This document shows positions 13,320 through 47,929 of a DNA stretch of 64,000 bases, in pieces. The notes beneath the pieces were generated by a model. That model was not told where the DNA came from and did no database searches. It was given only the letters and a program-made list of their open reading frames with translations. Made by a program: the position numbers and the translations under genes. Numbering within the stretch: position 1 is the stretch's first letter; every line of letters begins with the position of its first letter. This DNA is from Spirosoma endbachense (GTDB lineage: Bacteria > Bacteroidota > Bacteroidia > Cytophagales > Spirosomataceae): positions 8,764,682 through 8,828,681 of the forward strand of contig NZ_CP045997.1 in NCBI RefSeq assembly GCF_010233585.1, read 5' to 3'.

Positions 13320-13336
13320 GCAGAGATTATTTGCCA

Positions 13337-13425
13337 GGATTTTCGCCTGGAGATGTGCCACGGTTGCTGCCCACAAATAGAAACCGCGGTCCGCCGTGCG
13401 GTGGCACATCTCCAGGCGAAAATCC
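13337..13425. repeat. Intergenic inverted repeat A, 25-bp perfect arms
   Basis: Arms 13337-13361 and 13401-13425 are perfect reverse complements over 25 bp, with a 39-bp loop. It sits just before the start codon of the beta-helix/RhaM gene and after the stop of the GH2 gene (13497). The tip begins with tgccacggtt, a 10-mer that recurs in repeat B. Confidence 0.9.
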
Positions 13426-33508: not shown

Positions 33509-36301
33509 TTAGTCCTGTACCGTAAATCGATACGTTCCAGAGCCAACCAGAATCCTGGCTCTATCCTTCTCAAAACCAAGCACTTTTATTTCTTTGCGCT
33601 TACCGACTGGCTGCCCTCCTTCGGTGATCGGGCTGCTTATCGACGCAGGCAGGTAGATCTCCGACGACGTATTCGGTGGAATCTGAACGGTTAAGTCAAA
33701 GCGGGTTCCTACCTTTTTCCAATCACTCGAAATCAGGCCGTAAGGTGAATCGTAGGAAGCTTTTGCCTGCATAACATCGCCAACGGGTTGCGGGTAAATG
33801 ACGCTGTTCCGGAACGCAATTGACGTGTCGGCCTGCTTGATTCCCGCCAGACCGGCATAAAGCCACTCAAGCAAATGCCCCAGCATGAAATGATTGTTCG
33901 ACACCGATGGCAACGCCTGCCACGATTCGGTCAGGGCGGTTGCTCCTTTAGCCAACTGGTAGCCATAACCCGGCACATCGGAGCGGCTATTCATATCAAA
34001 AATCACATCCGACCGTCCGGCATCTTCCAACGCCCGAAGCAGATACCGATACCCAATATCACCGGCTGTCAGGCTGTTGTTCCGGCTCCGAATATCCTGA
34101 ACGATGTTTTCGACAACGGCTTCCCGGTATTGCGGTTCTACCAAATTCAGGTAGAGGGCCATTGCATTGGCGGTCTGGCTATTGGTTGCGTACTGCTTTG
34201 TCTGGTGGTTGAAAAACGCCTGATTAAAAGCGACTTTGACTTCACCAGCGAGTTTATCGTACTGCAAGGCATCATCAGACTTGTTTAGCATCCGGGCAAT
34301 TTTTGCCAGAATGGTCAGGTCATAGTAATACATTGCCGTACCCGTAACGCCCATCGGCGTCAACTGCGATACGCCCGGCGGTTTCGGACCCAGATCATAC
34401 CAATCGCCCAGCCCCTGAGCCAGGATATGGCTCTTCGCTTTCGTCCCCAGATAGGCAATGTAACGCTGCATCATGGTGTAACTAGCGGCCAGTTCGTCTT
34501 TCTCGCCATACCACTGATACAGATACCAGGGCACAATAATCGCACTGCTCCCCCACTCGGGCGAATCACGAAAGATGCCTCCTCCCCAGTCAAATTTCAC
34601 ATATTCCGGCGCAATCTCAGGAACCAGTCCCGCATCGGCAGATTGATTGTCGAGTTGCGAGTCTTTCATATCCTGAATTACTTTTTTGAGCAGACTGGCT
34701 ATATCGTACTGGTAGCGAACAGAGCCGCCCATCAAGTGCAACTCCTCCAGCCAGCCCAGCTTCTCGCGGTGCGGACAGTCGGTGAACACACTCGCCATGT
34801 TGCTTTTGATTCCCCAGTCGATGAGTGTACTCGCTTTATTGAACAGTTCATTCGAGCACGAAAACTGGCCAGCGCTTGCAGCCGCATTGCGCGTGTGTAA
34901 GCCCTTAAGATCAATGACCTGTGGCTTTTGGACTGGATTTTGCTCACCCTGAGGCACCCCACCTTTTAGCTGCAAATAGCGGAAGCCATAATACGTGAAC
35001 CGGGGTTGCCAGGTTTCGGCTCTCCCTCCCTTCAGAACGTATTCAAAATAAAACGGACTTCCTGACGCCTTCTGATTGACCGATCCATCAGCTTTCAGCA
35101 ATTCTGCCGGGTAAATCCGGATTGTATCGCCCTGCTTTCCGTTGACAGTCAGGCTAATTATCCCCGACGCATTTTGCCCTAAATCATAAACCCAGTCACC
35201 GGAATCGAGTCGTTTTTTGCTGATTGGCGCAAACGTATCGAACACCTTCAGCGGTTCCTGCATTTGTGACGTTAAAACGGGCGGTCCATCGACTATCAAT
35301 GCATTTTTCCAGGATTTGTCCGTAAAAGCCGGGCCATCCCAACCCGGTTGTTCGCGGGTAGCGTTGTAATTTTCACCCCCGTAAATGCTCGAAAACGTAA
35401 TTGGGGAAGGGGCCGTTTTCCAGGATGCGTCACTGACAACGTTATCCGTTGAGCCGTCTGTATAGGTGATAAACAACCGGCAAATCATCTTCGGATAGCC
35501 AAACATGACTTTCAATTTGCGGTATCGCTCCTTAACGGGTGGCACGTAATAAAATCCATTACCCAGCATGACACCGATGACATTTTCACCCGACTTTAGC
35601 TTATCGGTCAAATCGAAGGTGACGTACTGGGCCTGTTTGTCATATTTTGTCCAGCCGGGGTCCAGAAAATGGTCACCTATTTTTTGCCCATTCAGGTGGG
35701 CATCGAATTGCCCCAGGCCCGATATAAACAAGGTAGCCTTTCGCACCGATTTTGTGATCGTCAGGCTCTTTCGCACTAAAGGCAACACATTCCCGCCCTG
35801 CACCTTATCTTTCTTCCCATCGGTCGGCAGCGTATTGACCAATGAATCGGGTAGTTTTTCGTAGCCAATCCAGGCGGCACCTTTCCAGTCGACTTTGGTC
35901 AATAAGCCCATTTGCCAGGACGCTACCGGGCTCCAGGGCGACTCGGTATCTTTTGTATCCCAGACTTTAATTTTCCAGTAGTAGAACTTGGTTGGCTCCA
36001 GTACTTTACCCTGATAGCTGACCTGAATAGAGGCATCGGAATTAACCCTGCCCGAATTCCAGATGTTCCCTTTGTTCTGACCAAGCGCTTCCGGCGAATC
36101 GGCAACCAGAATCTGATAGGCTTTCTGAAGCGTATTACGCTGCTGAGCAACCAGCTGCCAGCTCAACGCAGGCTTCGCGGTCTGTACACCAAGTGGATTG
36201 GAACGGTATTCACAACGCAGGTTCGTAACTGTCAGCGCCTGCGAAAATCCCGTTGCCGAAATGAGTAGAAAGAAAAGAATGTAACGGTATCTCGTATTCA
36301 T
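33509..36301 (-). CDS. GH78 alpha-L-rhamnosidase
   Basis: 930-aa exported enzyme. The signal peptide ends GFSQ (residue 20). Domains in order: a fibronectin-like N domain (NLRCEYRSNPLGVQTAKPALSW near 27-48), the Bac_rhamnosid N domain (FISGLGQFDAHLNGQKIGDHFLDPGWTKYDK near 192-222), the (alpha/alpha)6 catalytic barrel with FTDCPHREKLGW at 506-517, and a short beta domain at the end. The DCP-x-R motif and Glu513 are the usual catalytic region. Releases alpha-L-rhamnose from rhamnogalacturonan or RG-II. The gene is preceded by the 40-bp inverted repeat C. Confidence 0.95.
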   Translation of the reverse strand: MNTRYRYILFFLLISATGFSQALTVTNLRCEYRSNPLGVQTAKPALSWQLVAQQRNTLQKAYQILVADSPEALGQNKGNIWNSGRVNSDASIQVSYQGKVLEPTKFYYWKIKVWDTKDTESPWSPVASWQMGLLTKVDWKGAAWIGYEKLPDSLVNTLPTDGKKDKVQGGNVLPLVRKSLTITKSVRKATLFISGLGQFDAHLNGQKIGDHFLDPGWTKYDKQAQYVTFDLTDKLKSGENVIGVMLGNGFYYVPPVKERYRKLKVMFGYPKMICRLFITYTDGSTDNVVSDASWKTAPSPITFSSIYGGENYNATREQPGWDGPAFTDKSWKNALIVDGPPVLTSQMQEPLKVFDTFAPISKKRLDSGDWVYDLGQNASGIISLTVNGKQGDTIRIYPAELLKADGSVNQKASGSPFYFEYVLKGGRAETWQPRFTYYGFRYLQLKGGVPQGEQNPVQKPQVIDLKGLHTRNAAASAGQFSCSNELFNKASTLIDWGIKSNMASVFTDCPHREKLGWLEELHLMGGSVRYQYDIASLLKKVIQDMKDSQLDNQSADAGLVPEIAPEYVKFDWGGGIFRDSPEWGSSAIIVPWYLYQWYGEKDELAASYTMMQRYIAYLGTKAKSHILAQGLGDWYDLGPKPPGVSQLTPMGVTGTAMYYYDLTILAKIARMLNKSDDALQYDKLAGEVKVAFNQAFFNHQTKQYATNSQTANAMALYLNLVEPQYREAVVENIVQDIRSRNNSLTAGDIGYRYLLRALEDAGRSDVIFDMNSRSDVPGYGYQLAKGATALTESWQALPSVSNNHFMLGHLLEWLYAGLAGIKQADTSIAFRNSVIYPQPVGDVMQAKASYDSPYGLISSDWKKVGTRFDLTVQIPPNTSSEIYLPASISSPITEGGQPVGKRKEIKVLGFEKDRARILVGSGTYRFTVQD

Positions 36302-36428: not shown

Positions 36429-38045
36429 TTATACTTTTCCCTGTAACTTCCCCATTGCCTCGAATTTCCGGGAAGTGGATGTTTCCTCTTTTGCCGATGA
36501 TCTGGATGCGTTTCGCCAGCCGCTGTACAACAGATTGGTATCCAGCACGGGCTTTGGGAAGAAAAGGCTGGCAATGTAACCGACACCAATAACGATCAGG
36601 TGGCTATAGACACCAAGCATCAGTTTGTGGTGAGTGAAATTGTAGGCACCCATGTCGAGCAACAGCTTTTTGTTATCACCGTATCCGATTTTGGTCGACG
36701 TCAGAAACGCATAGGCCGTAAACAGAATACAGATTACGATGGCAATATTTACCCCTTCTTTATTGGCTCGGGCGCTGAAAATACCCAGCAGAAAAATACC
36801 GACGATCCCGCCCGAAAAAATAGCGTATAAGGTGAATACGATTCCTAAAACCCCTTCATTACCCGCCTGCAGGTAGATGGCTCCAATAAGAATGGCAATG
36901 ACACCAGAAAAAACGACAATCAGCTTGCTGACGGTCAGGTATTCTTTATCGGTTCTTGCCGGGCGCGCTTTTTTATAGAAATCCTCTAATCCAACAGCGG
37001 CCAGCGAATTCAGATCGGCACTCAGACTACAGATAGCCGCCGAGATCATGGCTGCCAGAATAAACCCAACAACGCCCGTCGGGAAGCGGGTCATGATGAA
37101 ATACGGGAAAACCGCATCCGGCCGCAATGTTGGCGGTAAAGGTTGTTGTTTGTAATAGACAAACAGGGCCGTACCAATAAACATGAATAGTGCCCATACC
37201 GGCACCGTTAGCGAGATGCCCAGAATTGAGGCTTTGATAGCTGCTTTATCCGTTTTGGCGGTCAGATAACGCTGCACAACGGTCTGGTCGGTACCATATT
37301 TCTGAATGGCGTAGAAGGCACCATTGATGACCATCACGATGAACGTAAGTTTGGTAAAATCCAGATCGTAAGGGCCAAATCCGGTGCGACCATTGACTGA
37401 AGCAATATCCAGAATCTCCGGCAGGCCACCCTTAACCGAAAAAATGATGACCGTAACGCAAAGAATACCACTGGCAAACAGCATGAATCCCTGAAAAACA
37501 TCTAACCAGATAACGGCTTCAATACCCCCTAACAGGTTGACCGTGATGATGATCGCCCCAACGACAACAATGATGTAGAATGTTTCAACACCGGTCATGT
37601 TGGTCAAGGCTACCGCCAGTAGGAAAAAAACAGTTCCCATGGACGAAAATTGCCGGAGAACGAACGCGATTGAGCTGTAATAGCGGGCAAAACGGCCAAA
37701 GCGTTTTTCAAAATATTCGTAGGTACTCAGGCCAATTACTTTCCGGTAGAGAGGGACAATAAACCAGATCGTTCCCAACAAAACAATAGGTACCATTAAG
37801 CCCTGTACCAGCAAGATCCAGTTCGACGAATAGCCTTCACTGGGGTATCCTAAAAAGGTAACGCTGCTGATTAATGTCGCCAGCAATGACATGCCGATGG
37901 CCCAGGCAGGAACCCGACCTTTAGCGGCAAAATATAATTCTGTGGTTTGCTGTTTTCGGGCATACCGCAACCCAAAATACAGGTTGATGAATAAAACCGT
38001 ACCAATTATCAGATAATCGAGTACGCTCAGGGTTGGGTTTGGCAT
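36429..38045 (-). CDS. Sodium/solute symporter (SSS family)
   Basis: 538-aa inner-membrane Na+-coupled transporter with about 13 helices. It begins with LDYLIIGTVLFINLYFGLRYARKQQ and contains the SSS signature areas IGMSLLATLISSVTFLGYPSEGY and AAMISAAICSLSADLNSLAAVGLEDFYKKA. It is only distantly similar to the symporter at 17382. It lies 16 bp upstream-to-downstream of the acid-sugar kinase gene, so its likely cargo is the acid sugar processed by the following enzymes (36-43 kb). Confidence 0.93.
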   Translation of the reverse strand: MPNPTLSVLDYLIIGTVLFINLYFGLRYARKQQTTELYFAAKGRVPAWAIGMSLLATLISSVTFLGYPSEGYSSNWILLVQGLMVPIVLLGTIWFIVPLYRKVIGLSTYEYFEKRFGRFARYYSSIAFVLRQFSSMGTVFFLLAVALTNMTGVETFYIIVVVGAIIITVNLLGGIEAVIWLDVFQGFMLFASGILCVTVIIFSVKGGLPEILDIASVNGRTGFGPYDLDFTKLTFIVMVINGAFYAIQKYGTDQTVVQRYLTAKTDKAAIKASILGISLTVPVWALFMFIGTALFVYYKQQPLPPTLRPDAVFPYFIMTRFPTGVVGFILAAMISAAICSLSADLNSLAAVGLEDFYKKARPARTDKEYLTVSKLIVVFSGVIAILIGAIYLQAGNEGVLGIVFTLYAIFSGGIVGIFLLGIFSARANKEGVNIAIVICILFTAYAFLTSTKIGYGDNKKLLLDMGAYNFTHHKLMLGVYSHLIVIGVGYIASLFFPKPVLDTNLLYSGWRNASRSSAKEETSTSRKFEAMGKLQGKV

Positions 38046-38061
38046 TAGGTTTAGAAATTAA

Positions 38062-39213
38062 TCAACATGTCCATAAGTCCGCTGGCCATCGATAGCTTCC
38101 CGGTTTTACAGTGATATGCAAGCTGTCTTTTTCAATAGCATCGCTCCTGACCACACCGGGGGCCAACTCCTGAACCGGAACCAGCCGCGTGACACCAATG
38201 GCCCGAAGCACAGCCGAAGCGGTTGACCCTCCTTCAATAATCAGCTCATCGGTTTTTGTTTGTGCCAGCACCCGGCTCACAGCCTTGGCCATTACCGTTC
38301 GCAGGTGAATAGCCGCCCGCTTATTGTCATCAATCAAACCTGGCTCAATAGCGATAATGACCTGACTGTGGTGCTGAAAACACCCGACGATTTCGGCCAC
38401 CCAACCAGCCAGATCGGACTCATTAAATCGGGAAATGTGCGTCAGTGCATTCGGCATATAACTGACGGCCTGACCAGCATCGGCCGCTTTCTTTACCAGC
38501 GCAACCCGCTCACCAAATGCGCTTCCACATACATAAAGCCTGTTTTCACCCAATTTCGCAGGCTCTTGTCTCCCTGATTCTGGCAGTTGCAATGAATCGA
38601 GTATGGCTGTAAAAAATCCGGAACCTCCCCCAATCATGGTTTCGGTATCGACCCGTTTTACCCATGCCCGTAAATCGTCCGTTGTTGCGACTTCACCGAT
38701 AACAATTCCCTGCTTCGGCAACGCTGTGGTATGCGGCTGCACGGTTAGTTGGGCAACATTAACGCTGAGCCGTCTCAATACATCCGAATCGGTTATCGGA
38801 AATTCCGGATCTTCAGAAAAATGCGTCTGGTCAATCGGTTGGCCATTTACATAATACGTACCGTTGATCAATGTTCTGCCCAGCGCCGGATTAGCCGGAA
38901 CGATCAGGGCTTTTTCTACCCCAAAAACTGCCAGCTGTGCCTGTGTTTCGGCAATAACATACCCTCGCAACACCGAATCGACTTTCTTGAAAATCAATTG
39001 CGGCTTCATCGGAAGTAACGCTTTGCTGGAACAGGTCATTTCCTGCACAGCGTCCGGCTCCGAAACCGACCGGGCATCGGTAGCGATTACCAGCAAATCG
39101 GCGGTAGATTGTGGATTGACCGACATGGCAATTTCGACACGAAGCCCATACGTCAGACCAATGCCTCCAAGCTCAGCGGCTCCCGTTAAATCGTCTGCAA
39201 TAACCGCGATCAT
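38062..39213 (-). CDS. Four-carbon acid sugar kinase (DUF1537 family)
   Basis: 383-aa cytosolic ATP-dependent kinase of the DUF1537/OtnK-DtnK family. These enzymes phosphorylate four-carbon sugar acids such as D-threonate or D-erythronate at O4. The N-terminal substrate domain starts with IADDLTGAAELGG (residues 5-17). The C-terminal nucleotide domain carries the Gly/Ser-rich GGSTASAVLRAIG near 325. It is followed, in the direction opposite to transcription, by a PdxA2-type gene; kinase plus PdxA2 is the established pair that turns D-threonate or D-erythronate into DHAP and CO2. The exact stereoisomer cannot be read from sequence. Confidence 0.88.
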   Translation of the reverse strand: MIAVIADDLTGAAELGGIGLTYGLRVEIAMSVNPQSTADLLVIATDARSVSEPDAVQEMTCSSKALLPMKPQLIFKKVDSVLRGYVIAETQAQLAVFGVEKALIVPANPALGRTLINGTYYVNGQPIDQTHFSEDPEFPITDSDVLRRLSVNVAQLTVQPHTTALPKQGIVIGEVATTDDLRAWVKRVDTETMIGGGSGFFTAILDSLQLPESGRQEPAKLGENRLYVCGSAFGERVALVKKAADAGQAVSYMPNALTHISRFNESDLAGWVAEIVGCFQHHSQVIIAIEPGLIDDNKRAAIHLRTVMAKAVSRVLAQTKTDELIIEGGSTASAVLRAIGVTRLVPVQELAPGVVRSDAIEKDSLHITVKPGSYRWPADLWTC

Positions 39214-39227
39214 TTTTTAATTATCGG

Positions 39228-39270
39228 ATGATTGAGTTGTTCTTGCCTATGCAATCAACAACTCAATCAT
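39228..39270. repeat. Hairpin between kinase and dehydrogenase genes
   Basis: Perfect 14-bp arms (39228-39241 with 39257-39270) and a 15-bp loop, filling the 61-bp gap between the PdxA2-type gene stop and the DUF1537 kinase start. It may modulate relative expression or be an intergenic repeat. Confidence 0.85.
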
Positions 39271-39274
39271 TCAA

Positions 39275-40327
39275 TCATGCATTCAATAGTTCTTTATTTT
39301 TCGCTAATTGGACTGCCGACTCAATCGCCAATACCATCGCGTCGGCGCTGGCAACCCCTTTGCCCGCTATTTCAAAAGCCGTTCCGTGGTCGACAGACGT
39401 ACGAATGATTGGCAGGCCCATAGTAATGTTCACGCCCTTCACACTATCCATCTGTTTCTTTTCAGCATTCCATTTAAAACCGGTCAGCTTAAATGGAATG
39501 TGGCCCTGATCGTGATACATGGCAACAATTCCTCCATAATAACCCGTCGCTGCTTTCGCAAAGAGCGTGTCGGCCGGTACTGGTCCTTCAACGTCGAAAC
39601 CCCGTCGTTTAGCCTCTTCAACCGCAGGCAGGATTTCCTGATCATCTTCGGTTCCGAACAAACCGGAATCGCCTGCGTGCGGATTCAGGCCCGCTACGCC
39701 AATTTTCAGATTGGTTTCTCCCAGAGAAATCAAGCCATTATGCAGCAGTTCAATTACTTCCAGAATCCGGTCTTTCTTGACCAGATCGCAGGCCTGCCGA
39801 AGCGACACATGCGTCGATACATGAATGACCTTCATCTGATCTTCAACCAGCAACATACCATACTTTTTGGTATTGGTATAATGGGCGTAGATTTCGGTGT
39901 GTCCTGCGAAATGATGACCCGCTTCGTTAATCGATTTCTTGTTGATCGGGCCGGTCACCGTAGCGTCAATCTCATCGGCCAGGGCCAGTTCGATCACCGT
40001 TTTTACGGCTGCAAAAGCGGCTTCTCCGGCCATTGCCGAAATTTCACCAAACTTTAACTGATCAATGTCTACATTGTTGAGGTCATACACATCAATTGTA
40101 CCCAGTTGATAGTGTGCGTCCCGAACTGATCTGACCGGCCTGATCACTGCGTTCAGATTCAGCCGGGCAACAATATCGGCAAAAACATGCGCATCGCCCA
40201 CCAGAATAGGCTTGCACAGTTCGTAGATGGCCGGATTGAGCAGTGCTTTAACCGCTATTTCGGGGCCAATGCTTGCCGGATCACCCATCGTGATGCCAAC
40301 AATTGGTTTATCATCTTTATACATCAT
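39275..40327 (-). CDS. PdxA2-type 4-phospho-acid-sugar dehydrogenase
   Basis: 350-aa cytosolic enzyme of the PdxA family, NAD-dependent and divalent-metal dependent. Metal-binding histidines are seen at His173 (STHVSLR), His217 (NPHAGDSG) and His272 (YHDQGH). The opening VGITMGDPASIGPEI is typical. PdxA proper makes a pyridoxal-phosphate precursor, but adjacency to a DUF1537 kinase points to the paralogue PdxA2, which oxidises and decarboxylates D-threonate 4-phosphate or D-erythronate 4-phosphate to DHAP. Nine bases separate it from the aldolase gene. Confidence 0.88.
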   Translation of the reverse strand: MMYKDDKPIVGITMGDPASIGPEIAVKALLNPAIYELCKPILVGDAHVFADIVARLNLNAVIRPVRSVRDAHYQLGTIDVYDLNNVDIDQLKFGEISAMAGEAAFAAVKTVIELALADEIDATVTGPINKKSINEAGHHFAGHTEIYAHYTNTKKYGMLLVEDQMKVIHVSTHVSLRQACDLVKKDRILEVIELLHNGLISLGETNLKIGVAGLNPHAGDSGLFGTEDDQEILPAVEEAKRRGFDVEGPVPADTLFAKAATGYYGGIVAMYHDQGHIPFKLTGFKWNAEKKQMDSVKGVNITMGLPIIRTSVDHGTAFEIAGKGVASADAMVLAIESAVQLAKNKELLNA

Positions 40328-40335
40328 CTGCTCGC

Positions 40336-41256
40336 TTACAGTTGTATTTCTTCTTTTTCGACCAGTTCGGCCAGGGTCGTTTTCAGTTCGGTGGCTTCGC
40401 GCTCAGAAAGCGATTGCAGGGGAGGCATCATTGTTGGATCACAAAGACCATATTCCTGCATCAACACTTTCAGTGCCCATAATGATTCGCCCAGTGTCCG
40501 ACCCGATTGGTACAACTGGCCAAATACATCCGATTGATTTTGATACCCATAGGCTTTATCGGCGTCGCCAGCCCGAACCGCCTTCATCATATCCCGGTAG
40601 ATACCCGGAAACAGATTGCCGGTGCTGGGAACCAGCCCATCGGAACCATACAAAAGTGCCTGCGCCGACTTTGCTGCCCATCCCATAAAATGGCTGAAAT
40701 CAGCCCGATTTGCCCATAAAGACAGTGATTCGTTCAGTCGTTCACTGCTTCGCTCCGAGTCCTTCGTACCGACAATATTGGGGTGGTAACTTAATTCGTC
40801 AATCACCGCCAGCGGAATCGACATGTGGGTGGTTGCAAAGATGTTATAGATGATCAGCGGTCCGTTCAACTGATTAGCCAGTTGCTCGAAATACCGCTTC
40901 ATCTGACTTTCTGAGAGGCTGTAGTAGGAAGGGAGTGTAGCCGCAACCGCATCGATACCCGAGTCAAAACAGTAGTTCGCAAAATCGATCGTTTCTTCCA
41001 GACAGTTTGACGAAATACCGGCGTATACCATCATATCGGCTGATTTTAGCTGTACTACCGCCCGCACATAATCCTTTTTTATCGGTGTAGGCAGCGAAGC
41101 AGACTCTCCTGTTGTTCCTAAAATAAACGGCATAGCCTCATTCGCCTGAAGATTGCTCACTATCTTCTCAACCGCCGGCCTATCCAATTGGTATGCTTCG
41201 GTCAGGGGCGTAACAAGCGGAACAACAACACCCTGATACTTCTTTTTTAGGTTCAT
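40336..41256 (-). CDS. DapA/NanA-superfamily pyruvate aldolase
   Basis: 306-aa cytosolic class I aldolase. The pyruvate-binding motif GTTGE is intact (47-51), catalytic Tyr137 is in LIIYNIF and the Schiff-base Lys165 in VGTKDSE. This differs from the CLSSE variant at 16441. The start codon lies 2 bp after the Fe-alcohol dehydrogenase stop, and the stop is 9 bp before the PdxA2-type start, so this is a tight operon. A retro-aldol cleavage of a 2-keto-3-deoxy sugar acid to pyruvate and an aldehyde is the expected reaction; Dha (3-deoxy-D-lyxo-heptulosaric acid) is the candidate proposed here. Confidence 0.88.
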   Translation of the reverse strand: MNLKKKYQGVVVPLVTPLTEAYQLDRPAVEKIVSNLQANEAMPFILGTTGESASLPTPIKKDYVRAVVQLKSADMMVYAGISSNCLEETIDFANYCFDSGIDAVAATLPSYYSLSESQMKRYFEQLANQLNGPLIIYNIFATTHMSIPLAVIDELSYHPNIVGTKDSERSSERLNESLSLWANRADFSHFMGWAAKSAQALLYGSDGLVPSTGNLFPGIYRDMMKAVRAGDADKAYGYQNQSDVFGQLYQSGRTLGESLWALKVLMQEYGLCDPTMMPPLQSLSEREATELKTTLAELVEKEEIQL

Positions 41257-41258
41257 AA

Positions 41259-42407
41259 TTAGTAGGCGGCTGTATAAATGGCAATGGCATCCTCACGGGT
41301 AATTTCACGAGGATTATTTTTCAGTAACCGGGTAATTTTCATAGCATCCTCTGCCATTTGTGGAATGGCTTCTCGGGGAATATTCACATCGCGAAGGCGG
41401 GCCGGAATGCCACAATCGCGAATCAGTTCATTGATTTTCGCCACTCCGCGGGCTGCCGTTTCGGCATCAGTGCTACCCCGCTCGCACCCCAGTGCGATGG
41501 CCACCTGTGCATGCCGGCAAAGCGACGCCGACGCGTTGAACTCCATCACATAAGGCAGCAATAAGGCATTGGAGAGCCCGTGGGCCAGATGAAACATACT
41601 CCCCAGCGGATACGACAGGGCATGAACACCGGCCGTGTTGACAGGCCCCAGACAAAACCCACCCAGCAAACTACCCATTGCGACCTGTGTACGCGCTTCT
41701 TCGTCCGATCCATCCCGTACGGCCTGCACGATATTGGCCGCAATCAGGCGCATGCCTTCAAAGGCGTACATGTCGATGAACGGTTGGGCAAATTTGTTGG
41801 TGTAAGCCTCCAGGCAATGCGTTAGTGCATCAATACCGGTAGCTGCGGTAATGGCCGAAGGAACACTCAGGGTCAACAATGGATCGACATAAACGATGTC
41901 GGGCACCAGAAACGGACTGATGATGCCTTTCTTCTGATTATCGGCCGTATCGACTAAAATGGCGTTTGGCGACGCTTCACTGCCCGTTCCCGATGTGGCA
42001 GGCACACAAATAAGTTTTTTACGCCTACTGCTCAGGTTTCCAATGCCAACGATTTCAGCCAGAGCCTGGTCATTGTCGAGTTGGGCCGCTACCAGTTTGG
42101 CAATATCCAGCACGCTTCCTCCGCCAATACCCACCACCAGGTCGGGATTAAACGGAGCGACAGCTTGTAGTAATGCGTCGAAATCATCGAAGGTTGGCTC
42201 CTGAACAATACTGGTATCGACCCGAACAGCAATTCCATTGCTTTCCAGGCTATCAATCAGGCTTTTCAACTGTCCCAGAAGTGGGCTAATGGTTATGAGT
42301 AGTACCCGTTGGGGAAACAGTTGACTGATTTCATCAGCTAAGCTCCCCAGAGAGCCTTTACCAAAAACCAGTTTGCCGGGAAAATGTATTTTTAAAGCCT
42401 GAGTCAT
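41259..42407 (-). CDS. Iron-containing (group III) alcohol dehydrogenase
   Basis: 382-aa cytosolic Fe-ADH. The NAD-binding loop is GGGS (95-98), and the metal ligands are Asp193, His197 (GIDALTHCLEAY), His262 and His276 (VHALSY..., FHLAHGLSN). Relatives include lactaldehyde reductase (FucO), methanol and 1,3-propanediol dehydrogenases, which reduce small aldehydes. Its position directly before the aldolase gene suggests it handles the aldehyde released by that aldolase. A fucose or rhamnose lactaldehyde role is an alternative. Confidence 0.9.
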   Translation of the reverse strand: MTQALKIHFPGKLVFGKGSLGSLADEISQLFPQRVLLITISPLLGQLKSLIDSLESNGIAVRVDTSIVQEPTFDDFDALLQAVAPFNPDLVVGIGGGSVLDIAKLVAAQLDNDQALAEIVGIGNLSSRRKKLICVPATSGTGSEASPNAILVDTADNQKKGIISPFLVPDIVYVDPLLTLSVPSAITAATGIDALTHCLEAYTNKFAQPFIDMYAFEGMRLIAANIVQAVRDGSDEEARTQVAMGSLLGGFCLGPVNTAGVHALSYPLGSMFHLAHGLSNALLLPYVMEFNASASLCRHAQVAIALGCERGSTDAETAARGVAKINELIRDCGIPARLRDVNIPREAIPQMAEDAMKITRLLKNNPREITREDAIAIYTAAY

Positions 42408-42477
42408 TGTTTCTAAAGTGTTTTTGTCCTGCTGATGTAGCCTGATCGCCGGAGCGAATGCATGACAAAAAACAGTT

Positions 42478-43611
42478 TCAATCCTTCGTTATTTCTTTTG
42501 CTATTGGTGCCGTATAGCCTGCCAGAGTGGGCCAAACGCCGTTTTCAATAGGTTTCAACTTCAGTTTCTTCGGATCAATGACCGCGTGTTTGATCTTTTG
42601 CCGACGCCATGTATAAATCACATGAATCAACCCATCGCTCGTTTGAATCACGGATGGATACGAATACTGACTGATGGGTGAATCTTCCAGGATGACCGCT
42701 GCCGACCAGTTTTTACCATCGTTCGACACGGCCAGATTCAGCGGTGTTCGCGGCCCTTTGGCCAGATCCCCCGGTGGCAGTACGTGGTTATAGACCAGCA
42801 CCTGCCGACCATCGCTGAGCGTTACGGCATCGGTTCCTGAATTGTTATTGGGCAATGACGATTTGGCCAATGGCGACCACGTTTCTCCATTATCTGTCGA
42901 CCAGGATTCGACAATTGCGCGATCTCTACTACGTGCCAGAATCTGGAGTTTTCCCTTCCCGTAACTCAGAATGCTCGGCTGAATGGCATTGATCGTTTTG
43001 CCGTCATTGATCGGGCCGACCATCCGCCAGGTTTTTCCAAAATCCGGAGTCACTTCGAAATGCAGTTTCCAGCCGTCGCCCTCCGTGCTGGACGGGCAAA
43101 CCAGATTTCCATTGGCCAGCAATACCGGTTTGTTTTTCACTGGTCCTATATACCCTTCGGGTAAAGCTTTGGCCTTCGACCATATGCGACCACCATCTGA
43201 GGATGTTTTCAGCCAGCCTTTCCATTTGGACGGACTTGGGCCAACTTTGTAGAAAAGCATCAGATCACCCTTCGGAATCTGATACAAAACCGGATTCCAG
43301 CAGGCGTACCGGAGCGTATCGTTGATAATTCCATTGGCCACGTTTTGCGGAGCCATCCATTTGCCGTTTTCCTGGCGGCTTATCCAGATGCATACGTCCG
43401 GGTTCCGTTCTTTAGTCCCTCCAAACCAAGCCGATACCAACCCGGTCGGCGTTTCGGTAATGGTGGCGGCATGGCTTTCCGGAAATGGTGGTTTTTCAAC
43501 CACAAATTCATCGACTACCAATCCGGATTGCCATTTCGGCAACTGGGCGAATGTTGTACTGAAGAGTGTCAGACTGGTCAGCAGGGTCAGGTATAGGGGT
43601 TTGTTTTTCAT
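42478..43611 (-). CDS. Exported sialidase-like BNR-propeller hydrolase
   Basis: 377-aa exported six-bladed propeller of the BNR_2/sialidase superfamily. ATG 43611 gives a signal peptide (MKNKPLYLTLLTSLTLFSTTFAQ); the longer frame to 43776 would overlap the DUF3826 gene. Three Asp-box motifs are visible: SSDGGRIW (137-144), TPDFGKTW (188-195) and STDNGETW (238-245). The classic sialidase FRIP is not seen. Because sialic acid genes are otherwise absent, the substrate may be another 2-keto-3-deoxy acid glycoside such as Kdo or Dha of RG-II; that is inference from the next genes. Confidence 0.82.
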   Translation of the reverse strand: MKNKPLYLTLLTSLTLFSTTFAQLPKWQSGLVVDEFVVEKPPFPESHAATITETPTGLVSAWFGGTKERNPDVCIWISRQENGKWMAPQNVANGIINDTLRYACWNPVLYQIPKGDLMLFYKVGPSPSKWKGWLKTSSDGGRIWSKAKALPEGYIGPVKNKPVLLANGNLVCPSSTEGDGWKLHFEVTPDFGKTWRMVGPINDGKTINAIQPSILSYGKGKLQILARSRDRAIVESWSTDNGETWSPLAKSSLPNNNSGTDAVTLSDGRQVLVYNHVLPPGDLAKGPRTPLNLAVSNDGKNWSAAVILEDSPISQYSYPSVIQTSDGLIHVIYTWRRQKIKHAVIDPKKLKLKPIENGVWPTLAGYTAPIAKEITKD

Positions 43612-43681: not shown

Positions 43682-44386
43682 TCAATTTGTCGCCTGTTTC
43701 TTCTCAGCGGCTTTTTTTGCTTTGATTGCAGCCGTATAGGTATTGTACATTTCTCGCCAATTGCGGCCATTGGCATTGAGATACTGCTCTGATTTGGTTT
43801 TGTAGATCTCGAAAATGGCCGAAATCTCTTTCATGCTTTTATAATCGACAGCCTGTTCCCGAGCCTGCTCCAGAAATCCCAGAATGGTTTCTTCTTCCTG
43901 AGCGGTTATGTTGGGGACGATGGCCCTGTAACCGTTCATCGTGAACGCGACTTTTCCAATCGTGTATTTATTCAGCACGGCGTCAACCTGCTTTTTATCG
44001 AGGTCTTTTTGCAGCCCAGTCATCAGATCCTCGTGTACGGTTTTGGGAATGGCCGAGTCGGCTATGAGTTGGCGGTCCAGCTCTGACAGCGGTTTGCCCG
44101 TTACGGGATTGATCCCGGCCGGAACTGAAGCAACGGGATGTTCATTGTGCCAGTCGCGTATGGCATTCAGGTGCGTAGCAACCACTCCGGTCAGGCGTTT
44201 TTCCTTATCCGGATCATTCAGGTTCAGTGAACTAATCCACTCGGCGGCTTTTTTCTCCTGTTCAGCATCGGCTTTCGCTTTGGTCTCGGCAGAGGCTACT
44301 GGCATGACGGATTGAGTCTGGCTGAATACAGGCGCTGCCGACAGGACGCCAGCTATGAACAAACAGGTATTGACAATTTTTTTCAT
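43682..44386 (-). CDS. DUF3826 exported protein
   Basis: 234-aa exported mostly helical protein with a signal peptide ending VFSQ. It is rich in Lys, Glu and Ala and has no recognised catalytic motif. The stretch LTGVVATHLNAIRDWHNEHPV and NGYRAIVPNITAQEEETILGFLEQAREQAVDYKSMKEI match what is known as DUF3826, a family found next to pectin-utilisation genes in Bacteroidetes. Function unknown. It lies 2 bp from the start of the esterase gene unit. Confidence 0.75.
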   Translation of the reverse strand: MKKIVNTCLFIAGVLSAAPVFSQTQSVMPVASAETKAKADAEQEKKAAEWISSLNLNDPDKEKRLTGVVATHLNAIRDWHNEHPVASVPAGINPVTGKPLSELDRQLIADSAIPKTVHEDLMTGLQKDLDKKQVDAVLNKYTIGKVAFTMNGYRAIVPNITAQEEETILGFLEQAREQAVDYKSMKEISAIFEIYKTKSEQYLNANGRNWREMYNTYTAAIKAKKAAEKKQATN

Positions 44387-44388
44387 GG

Positions 44389-45864
44389 CTATTTTGAGCG
44401 TTCAGGAAGTTGTACTAGTTCATACTGCTGATTCTTCAATGGATTATCGGTTCGAAACGGGCGGGCAGGCAGCCCTTCGTTATTGAACAGATTCGGTTGG
44501 GCCGCTTCGTCCCAGGCAAAGCGAACAGCCACCGGATTCGACACAGAAGCCGCCGAAACGAGCACGTGTCTGCCGTCGATTCGTGCCTGTGCGGGTACAA
44601 AAACGCCATTGGCCCCGGCAACCGTAAAGCCAGTAAGTGGTTGCCCGTCTTTACTGACCAAACCATTTCCTATGTTCCGGAAGCTTAGTTCGGCCATGCC
44701 GCTCTTTACCCGCATGCCCTCATAAACAGGGCTTTGCGAACTAACCGAACGCTTTCCGTAATCTGTAGCCAGGGCGAGTAAGGCAAGTCGTCGACCAATT
44801 TCCCATTTGTAGGGAGGATGGATGTCGGACAGATCTTCGGCCAGATCGGTCGTTACGATCATTCCGGTTTTGGGCAGACTCAGTACCAATTCCTGCGCTT
44901 CCCGAAATTCAGGCAATGTTTCGCGCGTGAGCACAACTTTTCCTTTTGATTCAGAATATTTGAATGGCGCTAGTTGAACGTAATAAAACGGCAGATTCGG
45001 GTCGCTCCACGCGCTACGCCAGCTCGTAATCAGCGTTTTCATCTTGTGCGAATACGAACTGGTTTCTTTCAGGAAACAGTTGGTTTCTCCCTGATACCAC
45101 AGAAAACCCTTTACCGCAAACGGTGCCAGTGGCCGAATCATGGGTTCATAGAATTTTCCGGGTTCGCCGTCTACTTTCTGATCGCCATAATAAGCATCCT
45201 CCCGAAAAGCTGATTCTGAAATCCACGGCTCAATCCGGCTGCCGGGTATGGCCGACGAAATGACCCCAATCGGCACATTCAGGTTTTTGTAGAGTTCTTT
45301 CGCGAAGAAATAAGCGGGTGCCGAAAATGACCGCAAAGCCGAATCCTGAGCCATGTTCCAGCCGCGATGCAGCGAATCGGGCTTACCAAGCTCTTTCCGG
45401 TTGACCAGAAAGATGCGGATCTGAGGATTCGTAGCGTACTCCAACTCATCGACTGGATTATGGCCGTCAGTGTCAGTGGCCAACGCCCGATTCACCTTGC
45501 TATTCTTCCGCATGGTGTATTCCATGTTCGATTGTCCCGAGCATAGCCAGACTTCGCCCACCAGAATATTTTGCAGCCGGATGGTATTGGTGCCCGAAAT
45601 AAGCAACTCAGATGGCTTCGTTGAGGCTTTCAGTGGTTTCAGGGTAATCTTCCATTGGCCCGAGGCATCAGCAAACGTAGTCTGTTGTTGCCCGGCAAAC
45701 TGAATCGTCACCGTCTCGCCAACCGATCCCTTTCCCCAGATCACCACCGGTTTCCCCTGTTGCAGTACCATATTGTGCCCAAAAATTCGGGGCAGTATGA
45801 TTTCGGCTTTCAGTTGGATCGAAAGGGAAACTGTAACAAGGAATATGACGATAAATTTGGACAT
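44389..45864 (-). CDS. Sialate O-acetylesterase-type SGNH esterase
   Basis: 491-aa exported carbohydrate esterase of the SASA (DUF303) family. The catalytic Ser112 lies in CSGQSNMEY, a second block is GFLWYQGETNC, and the Asp-His dyad is in DLSDIHPPYKWEIGRR. The N-terminal beta domain (GHNMVLQQGKPVVIWGKG) is normal for the family. ATG 45864 begins the signal peptide; a further in-frame ATG at 45876 would add four residues. In pectin loci these enzymes remove acetyl groups from rhamnogalacturonan rather than from sialic acid. Confidence 0.9.
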   Translation of the reverse strand: MSKFIVIFLVTVSLSIQLKAEIILPRIFGHNMVLQQGKPVVIWGKGSVGETVTIQFAGQQQTTFADASGQWKITLKPLKASTKPSELLISGTNTIRLQNILVGEVWLCSGQSNMEYTMRKNSKVNRALATDTDGHNPVDELEYATNPQIRIFLVNRKELGKPDSLHRGWNMAQDSALRSFSAPAYFFAKELYKNLNVPIGVISSAIPGSRIEPWISESAFREDAYYGDQKVDGEPGKFYEPMIRPLAPFAVKGFLWYQGETNCFLKETSSYSHKMKTLITSWRSAWSDPNLPFYYVQLAPFKYSESKGKVVLTRETLPEFREAQELVLSLPKTGMIVTTDLAEDLSDIHPPYKWEIGRRLALLALATDYGKRSVSSQSPVYEGMRVKSGMAELSFRNIGNGLVSKDGQPLTGFTVAGANGVFVPAQARIDGRHVLVSAASVSNPVAVRFAWDEAAQPNLFNNEGLPARPFRTDNPLKNQQYELVQLPERSK

Positions 45865-45911
45865 TTGAGCGAGCAACTTTCCGAACGACTTAAGTCTTTC
45901 TGGAAGTTTAT

Positions 45912-47789
45912 TTATTCTTGAAATTTGATTAACGGACTCGTTTTAAACGACTTAATCACAAACACAGCTTCTTCGTCCTGCTCGCCTGCTTTGGGTAAAT
46001 CATAACTTTGGTCGGTCGGCGTATCGGCATCCGGGAACCGGCGAACACCACCGGTTCGAAACACCACCCGCCGGAACGACGCCACAGGGGCAAAGAACAG
46101 TTTAGCCCCTTTCGATTGCCCATTCACAAACGTCGTAAACATCCGTTTGTCGCGATCCAGCTCAATTCGTACCTCGTATTGTTTACCCGCTTCGTATTTC
46201 TGAATGCCTGAATCACGGTAGCCGACTTTGGCTTTAAAAAGACTATCCGAATCGAACATCAGTCGAACAGCCGCATTGCCTTTGGCATCCTGAAACTCGA
46301 TCTGTAAAACCCCTTTATTAGCCTGTTGGGGCACGATTGAAAATTCGACAGCCACCTTCTTTGCGTCGGGGATAACCCGCTCGGCTTTGGCATAATCGAA
46401 CTTGTCTTTATCCCGAAGAACCAGTGCTTTCGTACCCGCAGCTGTTTCAATTTTTGCCGTAGCCTGAAGCGGGCTGTAGATGTTCCAGTATTTTAGCTCT
46501 TCGCCCGCTGGTAGCTGGGCAAACACATCATTAGCCTGATTTTTCACCTCGTCGGTGATCGGAACCGGAATGCTGGATACCCAGATATCTTCCTTGTTCA
46601 TGCTGTAGGTAACCCACAGATTGCCGTCGGGTGGCGTACCGTTGCCTTCTTCAATGCCCCGTACGTATTGCGGCCCATATGACTTGTAAGCCCCTCCATA
46701 GCGCATGGATGTAATTTCTCCATTTACCAACAGCAGATTCGTGTAGGCCAGGCCGTCTTTGCTGGTCGAAACCGCCAGCGGCCAACGAAACTCGGACGGG
46801 TTATAAACAGTGGCGTATTGGCCATCCGACGTTTTCTGACCCCATATCTTGGCGTTGCTGTTAACAAAACCCGGTGCCCGAAGCGGATTATACAACCAGG
46901 TTTTGCCTTCGTCTTTGCTGATTGTCGTTAAGGCGTGTTTCCATAGACCCACCACACGATTGTCGGGCAAATGATAATAGCTGAACGCTTTCACATCCTT
47001 CTTGAGCGAAATGAGTGGATCGTTGCGGTCGGCTTCTTCGATCCATTGCTGCATCATCAGCGGATTGGCGAGCAATTCATTACAGGCTTCGACAAATCCT
47101 TTGTCTTTCGAGCTGGTATAGAACGGGTAGGTCGATTTAGCCCGATCGGGGTTGCCATTGTTCCAGGATGTGTTATTGCGGATAAAGTAAATTGGTCCGA
47201 ATTTACCATCCGGGTAGACTTCCCGAACTACGCGACCGATGCCGTTTCCATCGTTCGGGTCGTCTTTGGGTCCCATCACAATTCCGTAGAAAGCCAGCGT
47301 TAACAACCGTTTGTTTTTCGCGACAAAGAAGCCCATCCGCTGGTGCATGACTGCGTACAGATCTTTGGCGACTTCTGGCCGACCTTCTTTCTTCCAGCCA
47401 TCCGGCACTTTGTATGGGGGAAAAATAATGGTTGGCTTCGACCAGTTATACCCATCTTTGGAGGTTAGAAGCAGCGTTTGCCCCGGCGGTACGTGTTCAC
47501 CGACCGGATTGCTGAGGTATTGCAGGTAGAAGGTATTATTCCAGTAGGCGAGCATGGGGGCGTGATTGTACGTCCAGTTGGTGCCGCCTGCCAGTTCTGG
47601 ATTTTCCCGGTTTGCCCGAAATACCTGAATGTTGTGTACGCCCACCGCCGGACTCAACTGACCGTGGTGATAATCGACATTGGACAACGTTTGCCCGACA
47701 TAGTGCACGGTATCCTGCGTGTATGCGTAGTGGGTAAGGCAGAACAGAAGTACCGTCTGAAGAAATAGTTGACCTAACTTTTTTGTCAT
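45912..47789 (-). CDS. Exported BNR-propeller protein with C-terminal ConA-like domain
   Basis: 625-aa exported protein with two parts. Residues about 50-430 form a sialidase-like propeller with sequences such as TSKDGYNW, ISKDEGKTWLYN and STSKDGLAYT. The last 180 residues form a beta sandwich of the ConA/LamG type (VAVEFSIVPQQANKGVLQIEF, YEVRIELDRDKRMFTTFVNGQ). ATG 47789 (MTKKLGQLFLQTVLLF) was chosen; the frame extends upstream to 47933 but covers a hairpin region and gives no signal peptide. I do not recognise the glycan target. It is likely a glycosidase of an RG component. Confidence 0.72.
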   Translation of the reverse strand: MTKKLGQLFLQTVLLFCLTHYAYTQDTVHYVGQTLSNVDYHHGQLSPAVGVHNIQVFRANRENPELAGGTNWTYNHAPMLAYWNNTFYLQYLSNPVGEHVPPGQTLLLTSKDGYNWSKPTIIFPPYKVPDGWKKEGRPEVAKDLYAVMHQRMGFFVAKNKRLLTLAFYGIVMGPKDDPNDGNGIGRVVREVYPDGKFGPIYFIRNNTSWNNGNPDRAKSTYPFYTSSKDKGFVEACNELLANPLMMQQWIEEADRNDPLISLKKDVKAFSYYHLPDNRVVGLWKHALTTISKDEGKTWLYNPLRAPGFVNSNAKIWGQKTSDGQYATVYNPSEFRWPLAVSTSKDGLAYTNLLLVNGEITSMRYGGAYKSYGPQYVRGIEEGNGTPPDGNLWVTYSMNKEDIWVSSIPVPITDEVKNQANDVFAQLPAGEELKYWNIYSPLQATAKIETAAGTKALVLRDKDKFDYAKAERVIPDAKKVAVEFSIVPQQANKGVLQIEFQDAKGNAAVRLMFDSDSLFKAKVGYRDSGIQKYEAGKQYEVRIELDRDKRMFTTFVNGQSKGAKLFFAPVASFRRVVFRTGGVRRFPDADTPTDQSYDLPKAGEQDEEAVFVIKSFKTSPLIKFQE

Positions 47790-47865
47790 TGCGACCTGAG
47801 TAGACTCTTGAGGGTTCACTCGTGTTACGATTGCTCTTTTGTCGGAATGACAAATCGCTCCCGAT

Positions 47866-47897
47866 CGTTTTGCCGGGTTTGAGATCCCGGCAAAACG
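47866..47897. repeat. Short inverted repeat upstream of BNR gene
   Basis: Perfect 12-bp arms (47866-47877 and 47886-47897) with an eight-base loop, in the 140-bp gap between the BNR gene start (47789) and the stop of the large beta-helix gene (47930). Confidence 0.75.
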
Positions 47898-47929
47898 ACA
47901 CGTTTCGACAAGTTGATTAACGTACACGT

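Follow-up and report, generated by a model that had tools for sequence, protein, structure and literature searches.

A candidate Dha catabolic module in an RG-II-like operon of Spirosoma endbachense

Dha is a rare sugar acid of RG-II, a pectin in the plant cell wall. The analyzed window is a 64,000 nt stretch of the Spirosoma endbachense contig NZ_CP045997.1 (assembly GCF_010233585.1), forward-strand positions 8,764,682 to 8,828,681. The host is a soil bacterium (Bacteroidota; Bacteroidia; Cytophagales; Spirosomataceae). As is evident from the open reading frames and Pfam matches, 23 co-directional genes at 7931-52805 enclose the five-gene module ADH-ALD-PdxA2-KIN-SSF and the gene of a BNR_2 protein (Table 1). 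An earlier note on this DNA had described these six adjoining genes at 36429-43611, and all of them are open frames on the minus strand, located where it had placed them. The intergenic gaps within the module are 16, 61, 8 and 2 bases. The run further encodes GH95, GH141, GH127, GH106, GH78 and GH143 proteins, three GH2 proteins, a GH130-like protein, a DUF3826 protein, a SASA esterase and a DUF6298 protein. With several glycosidase families in one co-directional run (GH143, GH141, GH106, GH78, GH127, GH95 and GH2), it looks like an RG-II operon. Pfam also identified a SusD protein at 1457-3232 on the opposite strand to the operon. No SusC was identified within the window; the frame preceding the SusD gene, which is cut by the window start, has no Pfam match.

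Table 1. Genes of the operon, with proposed roles and profile matches; counts refer to the 47 stretches carrying the module
Feature	Coordinates	Strand	Predicted identity or proposed role	Profile match and occurrence
GH141	10809..13409	-	GH141 protein	PF21231 6.4e-70
ALD2	16441-17385	-	Second aldolase, candidate Kdo aldolase	PF00701 2.5e-26
SSF2	17382-18971	-	Second symporter, candidate Kdo importer	PF00474 1.1e-39
GH127	20684..22723	-	Beta-L-arabinofuranosidase	PF07944 1e-108; in 12/47
GH106	26173..29703	-	Alpha-L-rhamnosidase	PF17132 1.6e-170
GH78	33509..36301	-	GH78-type alpha-L-rhamnosidase, directly behind SSF	PF17389/PF08531 and others
SSF	36429..38045	-	Sodium:solute symporter, proposed Dha importer	PF00474 1.2e-36
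KIN	38062..39213	-	Four-carbon acid-sugar kinase of the short DUF1537 type, proposed to act on D-threonate	PF07005 6.6e-36, PF17042 3.3e-10
PdxA2	39275..40327	-	PdxA paralogue, proposed D-threonate 4-phosphate dehydrogenase/decarboxylase (DHAP + CO2)	PF04166 1.3e-101
ALD	40336..41256	-	Class I aldolase of the DHDPS/NAL family, proposed to cleave Dha	PF00701 3.9e-43
ADH	41259..42407	-	Fe-alcohol dehydrogenase, proposed to form D-threonate by reducing the four-carbon aldehyde acid	PF00465/PF25137
BNR2	42478..43611	-	Sialidase-like protein, probably exported	PF13088 1.7e-92, on the longer frame starting at 43776
DUF3826	43682..44386	-	DUF3826 protein	PF12875 7.1e-66; in 16/47
SASA	44389..45876	-	SASA-type carbohydrate esterase	PF03629 2.9e-24
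GH143	45912..47933	-	Proposed Dha release from RG-II side chain D	PF24067 7e-126 (419 bits, cut-off 27), PF22585 2.1e-67
DUF6298	47930..51082	-	DUF6298 protein, adjoins GH143	PF19815 1.7e-254; in 13/47

The GH143 protein aligns with residues 24-611 of BT_1020 (PDB 5mqr) at 784 bits. Ndeh et al. 2017 reportedly showed the release of Dha by GH143 and described RG-II degradation loci with BT_1020 (GH143/GH142) in Bacteroides thetaiotaomicron. Dha release is known as the activity of the family, as given in an excerpt of PMC7761036. Like those loci, the window operon combines a GH143 homologue with GH106, GH141, GH78, GH95, GH127 and GH2 proteins. Unlike BT_1020, the window protein is GH143 alone, its match ending before the GH142 residue Glu694 of BT_1020 (excerpt of PMC7263609), and unlike the B. 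thetaiotaomicron loci the operon includes intracellular catabolic genes. The GH143 gene lies outside the stretch covered by the earlier note, which missed it, and its presence in the same operon is the strongest evidence for a role of the module in Dha catabolism. The earlier note had suggested that the sialidase-like hydrolase could release Dha; judged by sequence, this step is more likely to be carried out by the GH143 protein. The GH127 protein is a candidate for removing the capping arabinose from the Dha of chain D.

The aldolase ALD has 4xky and YagE (3n2x) as its best solved relatives. It carries the Schiff-base lysine, the tyrosine and the GxxGE motif of class I aldolases, and shares the fold family, the catalytic lysine and tyrosine and a GTTGE-type motif with the 2-keto-3-deoxy acid aldolases YagE, NanA and KDG aldolase. 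We take the catalytic roles of these elements to be those of the DHDPS/NAL family. The residues G47-T-T-G-E51, Y137, K165, R169, R173 and R184 are identical in the window protein and in the best 120 of its 2183 relatives at E<=1e-60; the last five are invariant also in 40 sequences from the loci. K165 and Y137 have identical counterparts in the aligned 3n2x and 4xky sequences, and the glycine-rich motif differs in details. In contrast, both structures have other residues at the positions of R169, R173 and R184. In the NCBIfam profile search ALD stayed below every equivalog cut-off, and ADH reached no cut-off.

The kinase KIN contains both DUF1537 domains, PF07005 with 124.6 bits (cut-off 25) and PF17042 with 41.1 bits (cut-off 28.3). 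Its best NCBIfam model is the D-threonate kinase NF047819, by name a model for the gammaproteobacterial type, with 121.5 bits, below the cut-off of 450. The solved relatives of PdxA2 are 4jqp, 2hi1 and 6e85, the last of which is named D-threonate 4-phosphate dehydrogenase. PdxA2 scores 310 bits against the model of this enzyme, NF002891, and misses the cut-off of 583; it was therefore treated as PdxA2-like and not as a proven member.

A D-threonate pathway consisting of the DUF1537 kinase DtnK and PdxA2 was reportedly described by Zhang et al. 2016 in PNAS, and the handling of D-threonate by this pair is known at the family level. Excerpts of PMC10971088 and PMC9997740 partly confirm this pathway. 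The module resembles it in having adjacent genes for a DUF1537 kinase and a PdxA paralogue with DHAP and CO2 as predicted products. It differs in that KIN is of a short subtype (383 aa) under the cut-off of the DtnK model, and in that, within a pectin operon, the gene order adds a pyruvate aldolase and an Fe-alcohol dehydrogenase predicted to make D-threonate from Dha.

The genes ADH, ALD, PdxA2 and KIN are contiguous, in one order and on one strand, in 46 of the 47 loci read, and the module starts with ADH in 46. This conservation of gene order is far beyond chance. At the exceptional locus, L011, ALD was located at the expected place by tblastn, the ORF step having given no match there. The SSF gene comes next after the kinase gene in 40 of the 47 loci; among the other seven, the stretches of L008, L012 and L013 end at the kinase. 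The RG-II-like surroundings of the module vary by genus and include GH143/BNR2, GH127/GH106, GH141/GH78, GH95, or DUF6298 with an apiosidase.

The co-occurrence of the kinase with GH143 was assessed in two samples that had been drawn without regard to GH143. The order sample comprises 291 genomes of the order of the window genome, which is one of them. The kinase (E<=1e-60, four weaker matches being left out) was found in seven genomes and GH143 in 31, and all seven kinase genomes are GH143-positive. With genomes treated as unrelated, the hypergeometric probability of this overlap is 8e-8; leaving the window genome out raises it to 7.6e-7. In the class sample of 395 genomes, 12 score above the GH143 cut-off. 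The kinase is present in two genomes, one being the window genome, and both belong to these 12. The earlier note had proposed a survey of co-occurrence with RG-II enzymes; in these samples every genome with a strong kinase match also has GH143 (7/7 and 2/2). The earlier note had also held that confinement of the cluster to non-pectin loci would speak against its proposal; such confinement is not seen, though 11 of the 47 module loci have none of the RG-II marker genes used within the stretch read.

Among 80 GH143 loci, which of 437 are the 80 most similar to the window, the kinase is present in 49 genomes, two of them with partial matches at contig ends; these counts are interdependent because of the choice by similarity and of shared ancestry. 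For the remaining 31 genomes one protein query gave no kinase match, and the ALD search returned only DHDPS-family matches of <=27% identity. The kinase and a close ALD are absent from all eight Dyadobacter, three Runella and five Hymenobacter GH143 genomes searched, save for a kinase fragment in one Dyadobacter. Where tabulated, the kinase lies <=50 kb from GH143 in 26 of 34 kinase-bearing genomes, in 13 of these 26 <=15 kb away and on the same strand. At a further ten loci (L004-L013) the distance is about 5 to 9.5 kb. The control genome of Bacteroides ihuae has a GH143 match yet is not among the control genomes matching either DUF1537 domain; thus, the proposed route is not the sole fate of Dha.

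We propose that Dha is freed outside the cytoplasm by GH143 and imported by the SSF symporter. Cleavage between C3 and C4 by ALD would give pyruvate and a four-carbon aldehyde acid of D-threo configuration, the aldehyde group of which would be reduced by the Fe-alcohol dehydrogenase to give D-threonate. The DUF1537 kinase would convert D-threonate into D-threonate 4-phosphate, and PdxA2 would oxidize and decarboxylate the latter to DHAP and CO2. The C7 sugar diacid would thus yield pyruvate, DHAP and CO2 with one ATP consumed, and the route would be redox neutral if the reduction by ADH and the oxidation by PdxA2 share a nicotinamide cofactor. We infer the substrates of ALD, ADH and SSF, and both substrate and stereochemistry for the kinase and PdxA2 of the window. 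The stereochemistry was reworked by hand, with the same outcome as in the earlier note, namely pyruvate and an acid reducible to D-threonate. The proposal of that note, a single Dha route through aldolase, Fe-alcohol dehydrogenase, kinase, PdxA2 and symporter, holds as a genomic prediction, and on firmer ground than the note itself had, in view of the GH143 gene in the operon, the block conserved in 46/47 loci and the 7/7 and 2/2 co-occurrence. We consider it quite probable that the five-gene module imports Dha after its release by GH143 and converts it to pyruvate and DHAP.

Alternatively, the module might act on Kdo, the other 2-keto-3-deoxy sugar of RG-II, and yield pyruvate and D-arabinose; the kinase and PdxA2 would then have some other role. 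Kdo cleavage would naturally fall to enzymes of the DHDPS/NAL family, and the sialidase-like BNR2 adjoins the module and is fused to a GH78 part in loci L096 and L094, which fits the Rha-Kdo of chain C. The start of BNR2 at 43611, as in the earlier note, is likelier than that at 43776, because the longer frame overlaps the neighbouring gene, and its N-terminus, read by eye, suggests that the protein is probably exported. As a hydrolase, BNR2 more likely serves the Kdo of side chain C than Dha. However, a DUF1537 kinase and a PdxA would be superfluous for D-arabinose, yet they follow ALD in 46/47 loci, and the operon has ALD2 and SSF2 besides. In L096 these two adjoin the GH78-BNR2 fusion, while ADH, ALD, PdxA2 and KIN are absent from the stretch and the genome has no kinase and no close ALD; in L094 both sets lie side by side. 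This arrangement fits two separate sugars, and Kdo degradation by the module itself appears improbable. Uptake of D-threonate, D-erythronate or another four-carbon acid as such, with ALD and ADH acting on an unrelated substrate and the RG-II link being a by-product of life on plant litter, is no better a prospect. It would account for the 11 loci lacking RG-II markers and for L161, where the module is preceded by an IlvD/Edd-type dehydratase, an enzyme that could supply some other 2-keto-3-deoxy acid. It leaves unexplained why 46/47 loci keep ALD and ADH next to PdxA2 and KIN and why GH143 occurs in 7/7 kinase genomes of the order sample against 31/291 overall.

It is very unlikely that the module serves the RG-II sugars apiose or aceric acid, neither of which is a 2-keto-3-deoxy acid. 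Apionate pathways use the DUF1537 kinase OiaK, and in L164 an apiosidase gene comes next after the symporter of the module, but KIN reaches only 18 bits with the model of OiaK, which has a cut-off of 700, compared with 121.5 for D-threonate kinase. To our knowledge, apionate routes involve neither a pyruvate-type aldolase nor PdxA, which also counts against this assignment, and we know of no catabolism of aceric acid. That the window PdxA serves vitamin B6 synthesis among coincidental neighbours is scarcely credible: its 331 bits do exceed the cut-off of 290 of TIGR00557, the general model for PdxA, but another PdxA with 388 bits is encoded elsewhere in the genome (G000:C1:3709798-3710673), and 46/47 loci keep PdxA2 in its place between ALD and KIN.

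Taken jointly, the operon would encode a complete, previously undescribed bacterial Dha pathway (GH143, SSF, a dedicated aldolase, D-threonate, kinase and PdxA2) and a separate Kdo route (BNR_2, SSF2 and ALD2), so that both 2-keto-3-deoxy sugars of RG-II would have their routes in one operon, a combination we favour with less assurance than the Dha module by itself. Since Dha also occurs in the scales of some green flagellates, RG-II is perhaps not its sole source. In plants, Dha and Kdo are reported from RG-II only, according to an excerpt of PMC12168206.

Among the literature matches listed, no paper describing Dha catabolism was recognized. If the proposal is true, it would provide a natural origin of the D-threonate on which the known DUF1537/PdxA2 enzymes act, and a candidate function for a large group annotated as 'dihydrodipicolinate synthase family protein' (2183 ALD relatives at E<=1e-60, the best 120 examined). 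It would also make possible an enzyme assay specific for Dha; such an assay would be of use, as an excerpt of PMC12168206 notes a lack of Dha standards. The five genes of the candidate module can be cloned and assayed, which makes Dha catabolism directly testable.

All six genes that the earlier note had grouped into a catabolic operon were found where it had placed them, on the minus strand. They are transcribed in the order BNR_2 (sialidase-like protein), ADH (Fe-alcohol dehydrogenase), ALD (DHDPS-family aldolase), PdxA2, KIN (DUF1537 kinase) and SSF (symporter), with successive gaps of 70, 2, 8, 61 and 16 bases; the last five genes are referred to as the module. The six genes are part of a co-directional run of 23 genes with every gap below 200 bases, which includes GH95, GH141, three GH2, GH127, GH106, GH78, GH130-like, DUF3826, SASA esterase and DUF6298 genes. 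The genome containing the window is 10.3 Mb in size. The promoter and terminator scan gave a number of sites not above that of shuffled sequences, and Rfam and tRNA scans of the whole window gave no match.

In the proposed route, ALD would cut the C3-C4 bond of Dha, whose C4, C5 and C6 have the D-lyxo configuration (hydroxyls left, left, right), in a retro-aldol reaction. This would yield pyruvate and OHC-CHOH-CHOH-COOH with the hydroxyls left and right. After reduction of the aldehyde, and with the chain turned carboxyl-up, the hydroxyls would again stand left and right, as in D-threonate. The stereochemistry was already set out in the earlier note and gave the same result when reworked by hand. 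D-threonate kinase is listed among the DUF1537 members (PMC10971088), and PdxA2 is described as a PdxA paralogue for organic-acid catabolism (PMC9997740).

KIN is of the short DUF1537 type. Its best model is that of D-threonate kinase, yet its score lies below the cut-off; PdxA2 likewise resembles D-threonate 4-phosphate dehydrogenase and scores below the cut-off of that model. Because of these scores the two steps can only be said to work like the known reactions, and membership is not proven. A vitamin B6 role for PdxA2 is unlikely, since a second PdxA is present elsewhere in the genome. An apionate pathway was rejected, KIN scoring 18 bits against the OiaK model. The GTTGE motif, Tyr137 and Lys165 of ALD, which are catalytic features of DHDPS-family aldolases, are kept in the window protein and the best 120 of 2183 relatives, as are R169, R173 and R184. 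Across 40 ALD sequences of greater diversity, taken from the loci, neither Tyr137 and Lys165 nor any of the three arginines varies. In contrast, alignments place other residues at the three arginine positions in YagE (3n2x) and 4xky. Judged from these alignments, R169, R173 and R184 are candidates for gripping the second carboxylate of Dha. The search of plasmids for ALD returned 26 records, every one below 60% identity.

BNR_2 was put forward in the earlier note as a hydrolase that could release Dha. This assignment was set aside because a protein of the Dha-hydrolase family GH143, absent from that note, is encoded three genes upstream, and because two loci have BNR_2 joined to GH78. The GH143 protein matches residues 24-611 of the reference BT_1020 (PDB 5mqr) with 784 bits and PF24067 with an E value of 7e-126. 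BT_1020 reportedly has both GH143 and GH142 activities, a result attributed to Ndeh et al. 2017. Since Glu694, given as the conserved residue of GH142 (PMC7263609), falls outside the matched part, the window protein represents the GH143 half alone. The families GH137, GH138, GH139, GH142 and GH143 are described as strongly co-occurring and tied to RG-II (PMC7922503).

Positions of the features discussed, in the window unless a locus is named
Feature	Position	Remark
Run of 23 genes	52805 down to 7931	co-directional
547-aa protein	51162-52805	no Pfam match; in the loci read, the 14 closest matches are 65-89% identical and come from several genera; start resembles that of pectate lyases; candidate lyase
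DUF6298 protein	47930-51082	directly adjoins GH143 in the window and lies close to it in many of the 80 loci
GH143 protein	45912-47933	
BNR_2 protein	42478-43611	minus strand
ALD2 and SSF2	16441-18971	second aldolase and second symporter; genes overlap by 4 bases, same operon
GH78-BNR_2 fusion	L096:16007-19828	one open frame
GH78-BNR_2 fusion	L094:1-2790	one open frame, beginning at the stretch edge
ADH of module type	L078:20300-21815	Niastella caeni, behind BNR_2
IlvD/Edd-type dehydratase	L161:14515-16245	genome G509, immediately ahead of the module, on its upstream side
Row of three genes: symporter, DHDPS-family protein, L-fucose isomerase	L098:44363-48665	Rufibacter tibetensis plasmid with a GH143 locus

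The conservation of the module was assessed in the best 80 of 437 GH143 loci in GTDB genomes, those most like the GH143 of the window, whose flanks were read. Protein searches found the kinase in 49 of the 80 genomes, 32 of 50 in one set and 17 of 30 in the other, the latter including ten Spirosoma, Larkinella, Arsenicibacter and Fibrella genomes (L004-L013), all kinase-positive. Two of the 49 kinases (G425, G731) are cut short by a contig end, and a 122-residue fragment in G730 is excluded. The kinase surroundings were read in 42 of the 49 genomes, those other than G425, G725, G729, G731, G732, G735 and G739. The 47 module loci (L004-L013, L092, L094, L095, L129-L158 and L161-L164; L159 and L160 are stretches identical to L013 and L007 and were excluded) comprise 42 from genomes picked for GH143; the class and order samples supplied the other five (L092, L161-L164). 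ADH, ALD, PdxA2 and KIN are contiguous, in the same order and on one strand in 46 of the 47, and SSF comes next after KIN in 40. The remaining seven stop at the kinase (L008, L012, L013), continue with other frames (L132, L157) or carry SSF upstream on the opposite strand and none next to KIN (L162, L163). All 31 kinase-negative GH143 genomes contain DHDPS-family matches to ALD, none above 27% identity, whereas the tabulated module ALDs show at least 44%. This indicates that the kinase and the ALD type are present or absent together in these genomes. Niastella caeni, a genome without the kinase and without a close ALD, has an ADH of the module type; the remaining module genes have apparently been lost.

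The neighbourhoods of the module are mostly RG-II-like and differ by genus. Among 34 tabulated kinase genomes, GH143 lies on the same contig in 29, within 50 kb in 26, and within 15 kb and on the same strand in 13; these are the 39 kinase genomes in L014-L083 less G425, G725, G729, G731 and G732, with contig identity assumed from coordinates for L077 and L083 and contig sizes 100 bases apart for L047. In Hufsiella, Desertivirga and Pedobacter sp. SYSU D00535 the module follows the series GH143-SASA-GH2-GH78-DUF3826-BNR2. It adjoins GH127, and mostly GH106 too, in Mucilaginibacter, GH95 and GH127 in Adhaeribacter, GH141, GH78 and BNR2 in Arcicella, and DUF6298 and an apiosidase in G701. At least one gene from a marker list of our own choice (GH143, GH141, GH106, GH127, GH78, BNR2, DUF6298, GH95, DUF3826, MGH1, GH2a) is present in the stretch for 36 of the 47 module loci. 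The other 11 have none; the refuting case named in the earlier note, co-occurrence with non-pectin loci only, was not observed. GH127, a beta-L-arabinofuranosidase family, was found in 12 of the 47 stretches. This fits chain D, the site of Dha, since chain D is described as terminating in beta-1,5-arabinofuranose (PMC12282258).

The same tie is seen in genomes not chosen for GH143. In the order sample of 291 genomes, the kinase was found at E<=1e-60 in seven and GH143 over the cut-off in 31, one of them marginal (G490, 30.4 bits). All seven kinase genomes are GH143-positive. Under independence the hypergeometric chance of seven in seven is 8e-8, and it becomes 7.6e-7 when the window genome is left out; both values ignore relatedness. 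At E<=0.001, 11 genomes have a kinase match; the four uncounted ones (G705, G489, G518, G637; E 4e-8 to 6e-4) look like other DUF1537 types, and GH143 is present in G489 and G637 and not in the other two. In the class sample of 395 genomes, the kinase occurs in two, one being the window genome, both GH143-positive; GH143 matches are found in 15, three below and 12 over the cut-off. All these counts treat related genomes as independent, and the searches covered the class. The module and GH143 are far apart on one contig in G690 and G116 and on different contigs in G509, G617 and G701, so the tie is one of the genome's capacity and not only of physical neighbourhood.

A separate branch appears to serve Kdo. 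The GH78-BNR_2 fusions suggest joint action on a rhamnose-Kdo disaccharide, and RG-II chain C is described as rhamnose on Kdo (PMC12282258). In L096 the fusion adjoins SSF2 and ALD2 with no Dha module, in a genome without the kinase or a close ALD; in L094 it is followed by both modules. From the fusions, the composition of chain C and these two arrangements, we think that BNR_2 belongs with SSF2 and ALD2 to a branch for Kdo, in which ALD2 is a candidate Kdo aldolase and SSF2 a candidate Kdo importer. Five aligned ALD2-type sequences have a conserved motif set unlike that of ALD. The Rufibacter plasmid symporter is SSF2-like (49% identity). L-fucose isomerase, also encoded in the plasmid row, is an enzyme type that accepts D-arabinose as well, the aldehyde product of Kdo cleavage. 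The plasmid aldolase was rejected as an ALD2 orthologue, its best window match being ALD at 29%, so that it is neither ALD nor ALD2. Only the neighbours of this aldolase, the symporter and the isomerase, point to Kdo, so the row is no more than a hint. With the GH143 locus and this row on a plasmid, RG-II use may spread by plasmid.

Several observations weigh against the proposed Dha route. The module is lacking in 31 of the 80 GH143 genomes. Bacteroides ihuae has the only GH143 match in 14 control genomes and is not among the three with DUF1537-domain matches, so Dha must also have fates other than this route. The dehydratase ahead of the module in G509 may feed a different 2-keto-3-deoxy acid into the same aldolase, which suggests that such acids may be the substrates of some copies of the module. 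Dha also occurs in the scales of some green flagellates, so RG-II need not be its only source.

Among the matches listed in searches of the open-licence literature, no recognisable description of Dha catabolism was found. As far as searched, the Dha route is new within the literature covered, and an earlier description is possible. We propose that the module is most likely a genuine catabolic route assembled from known enzyme families, that its substrate is probably Dha and, with somewhat less confidence, that the exact intermediate is D-threonate.
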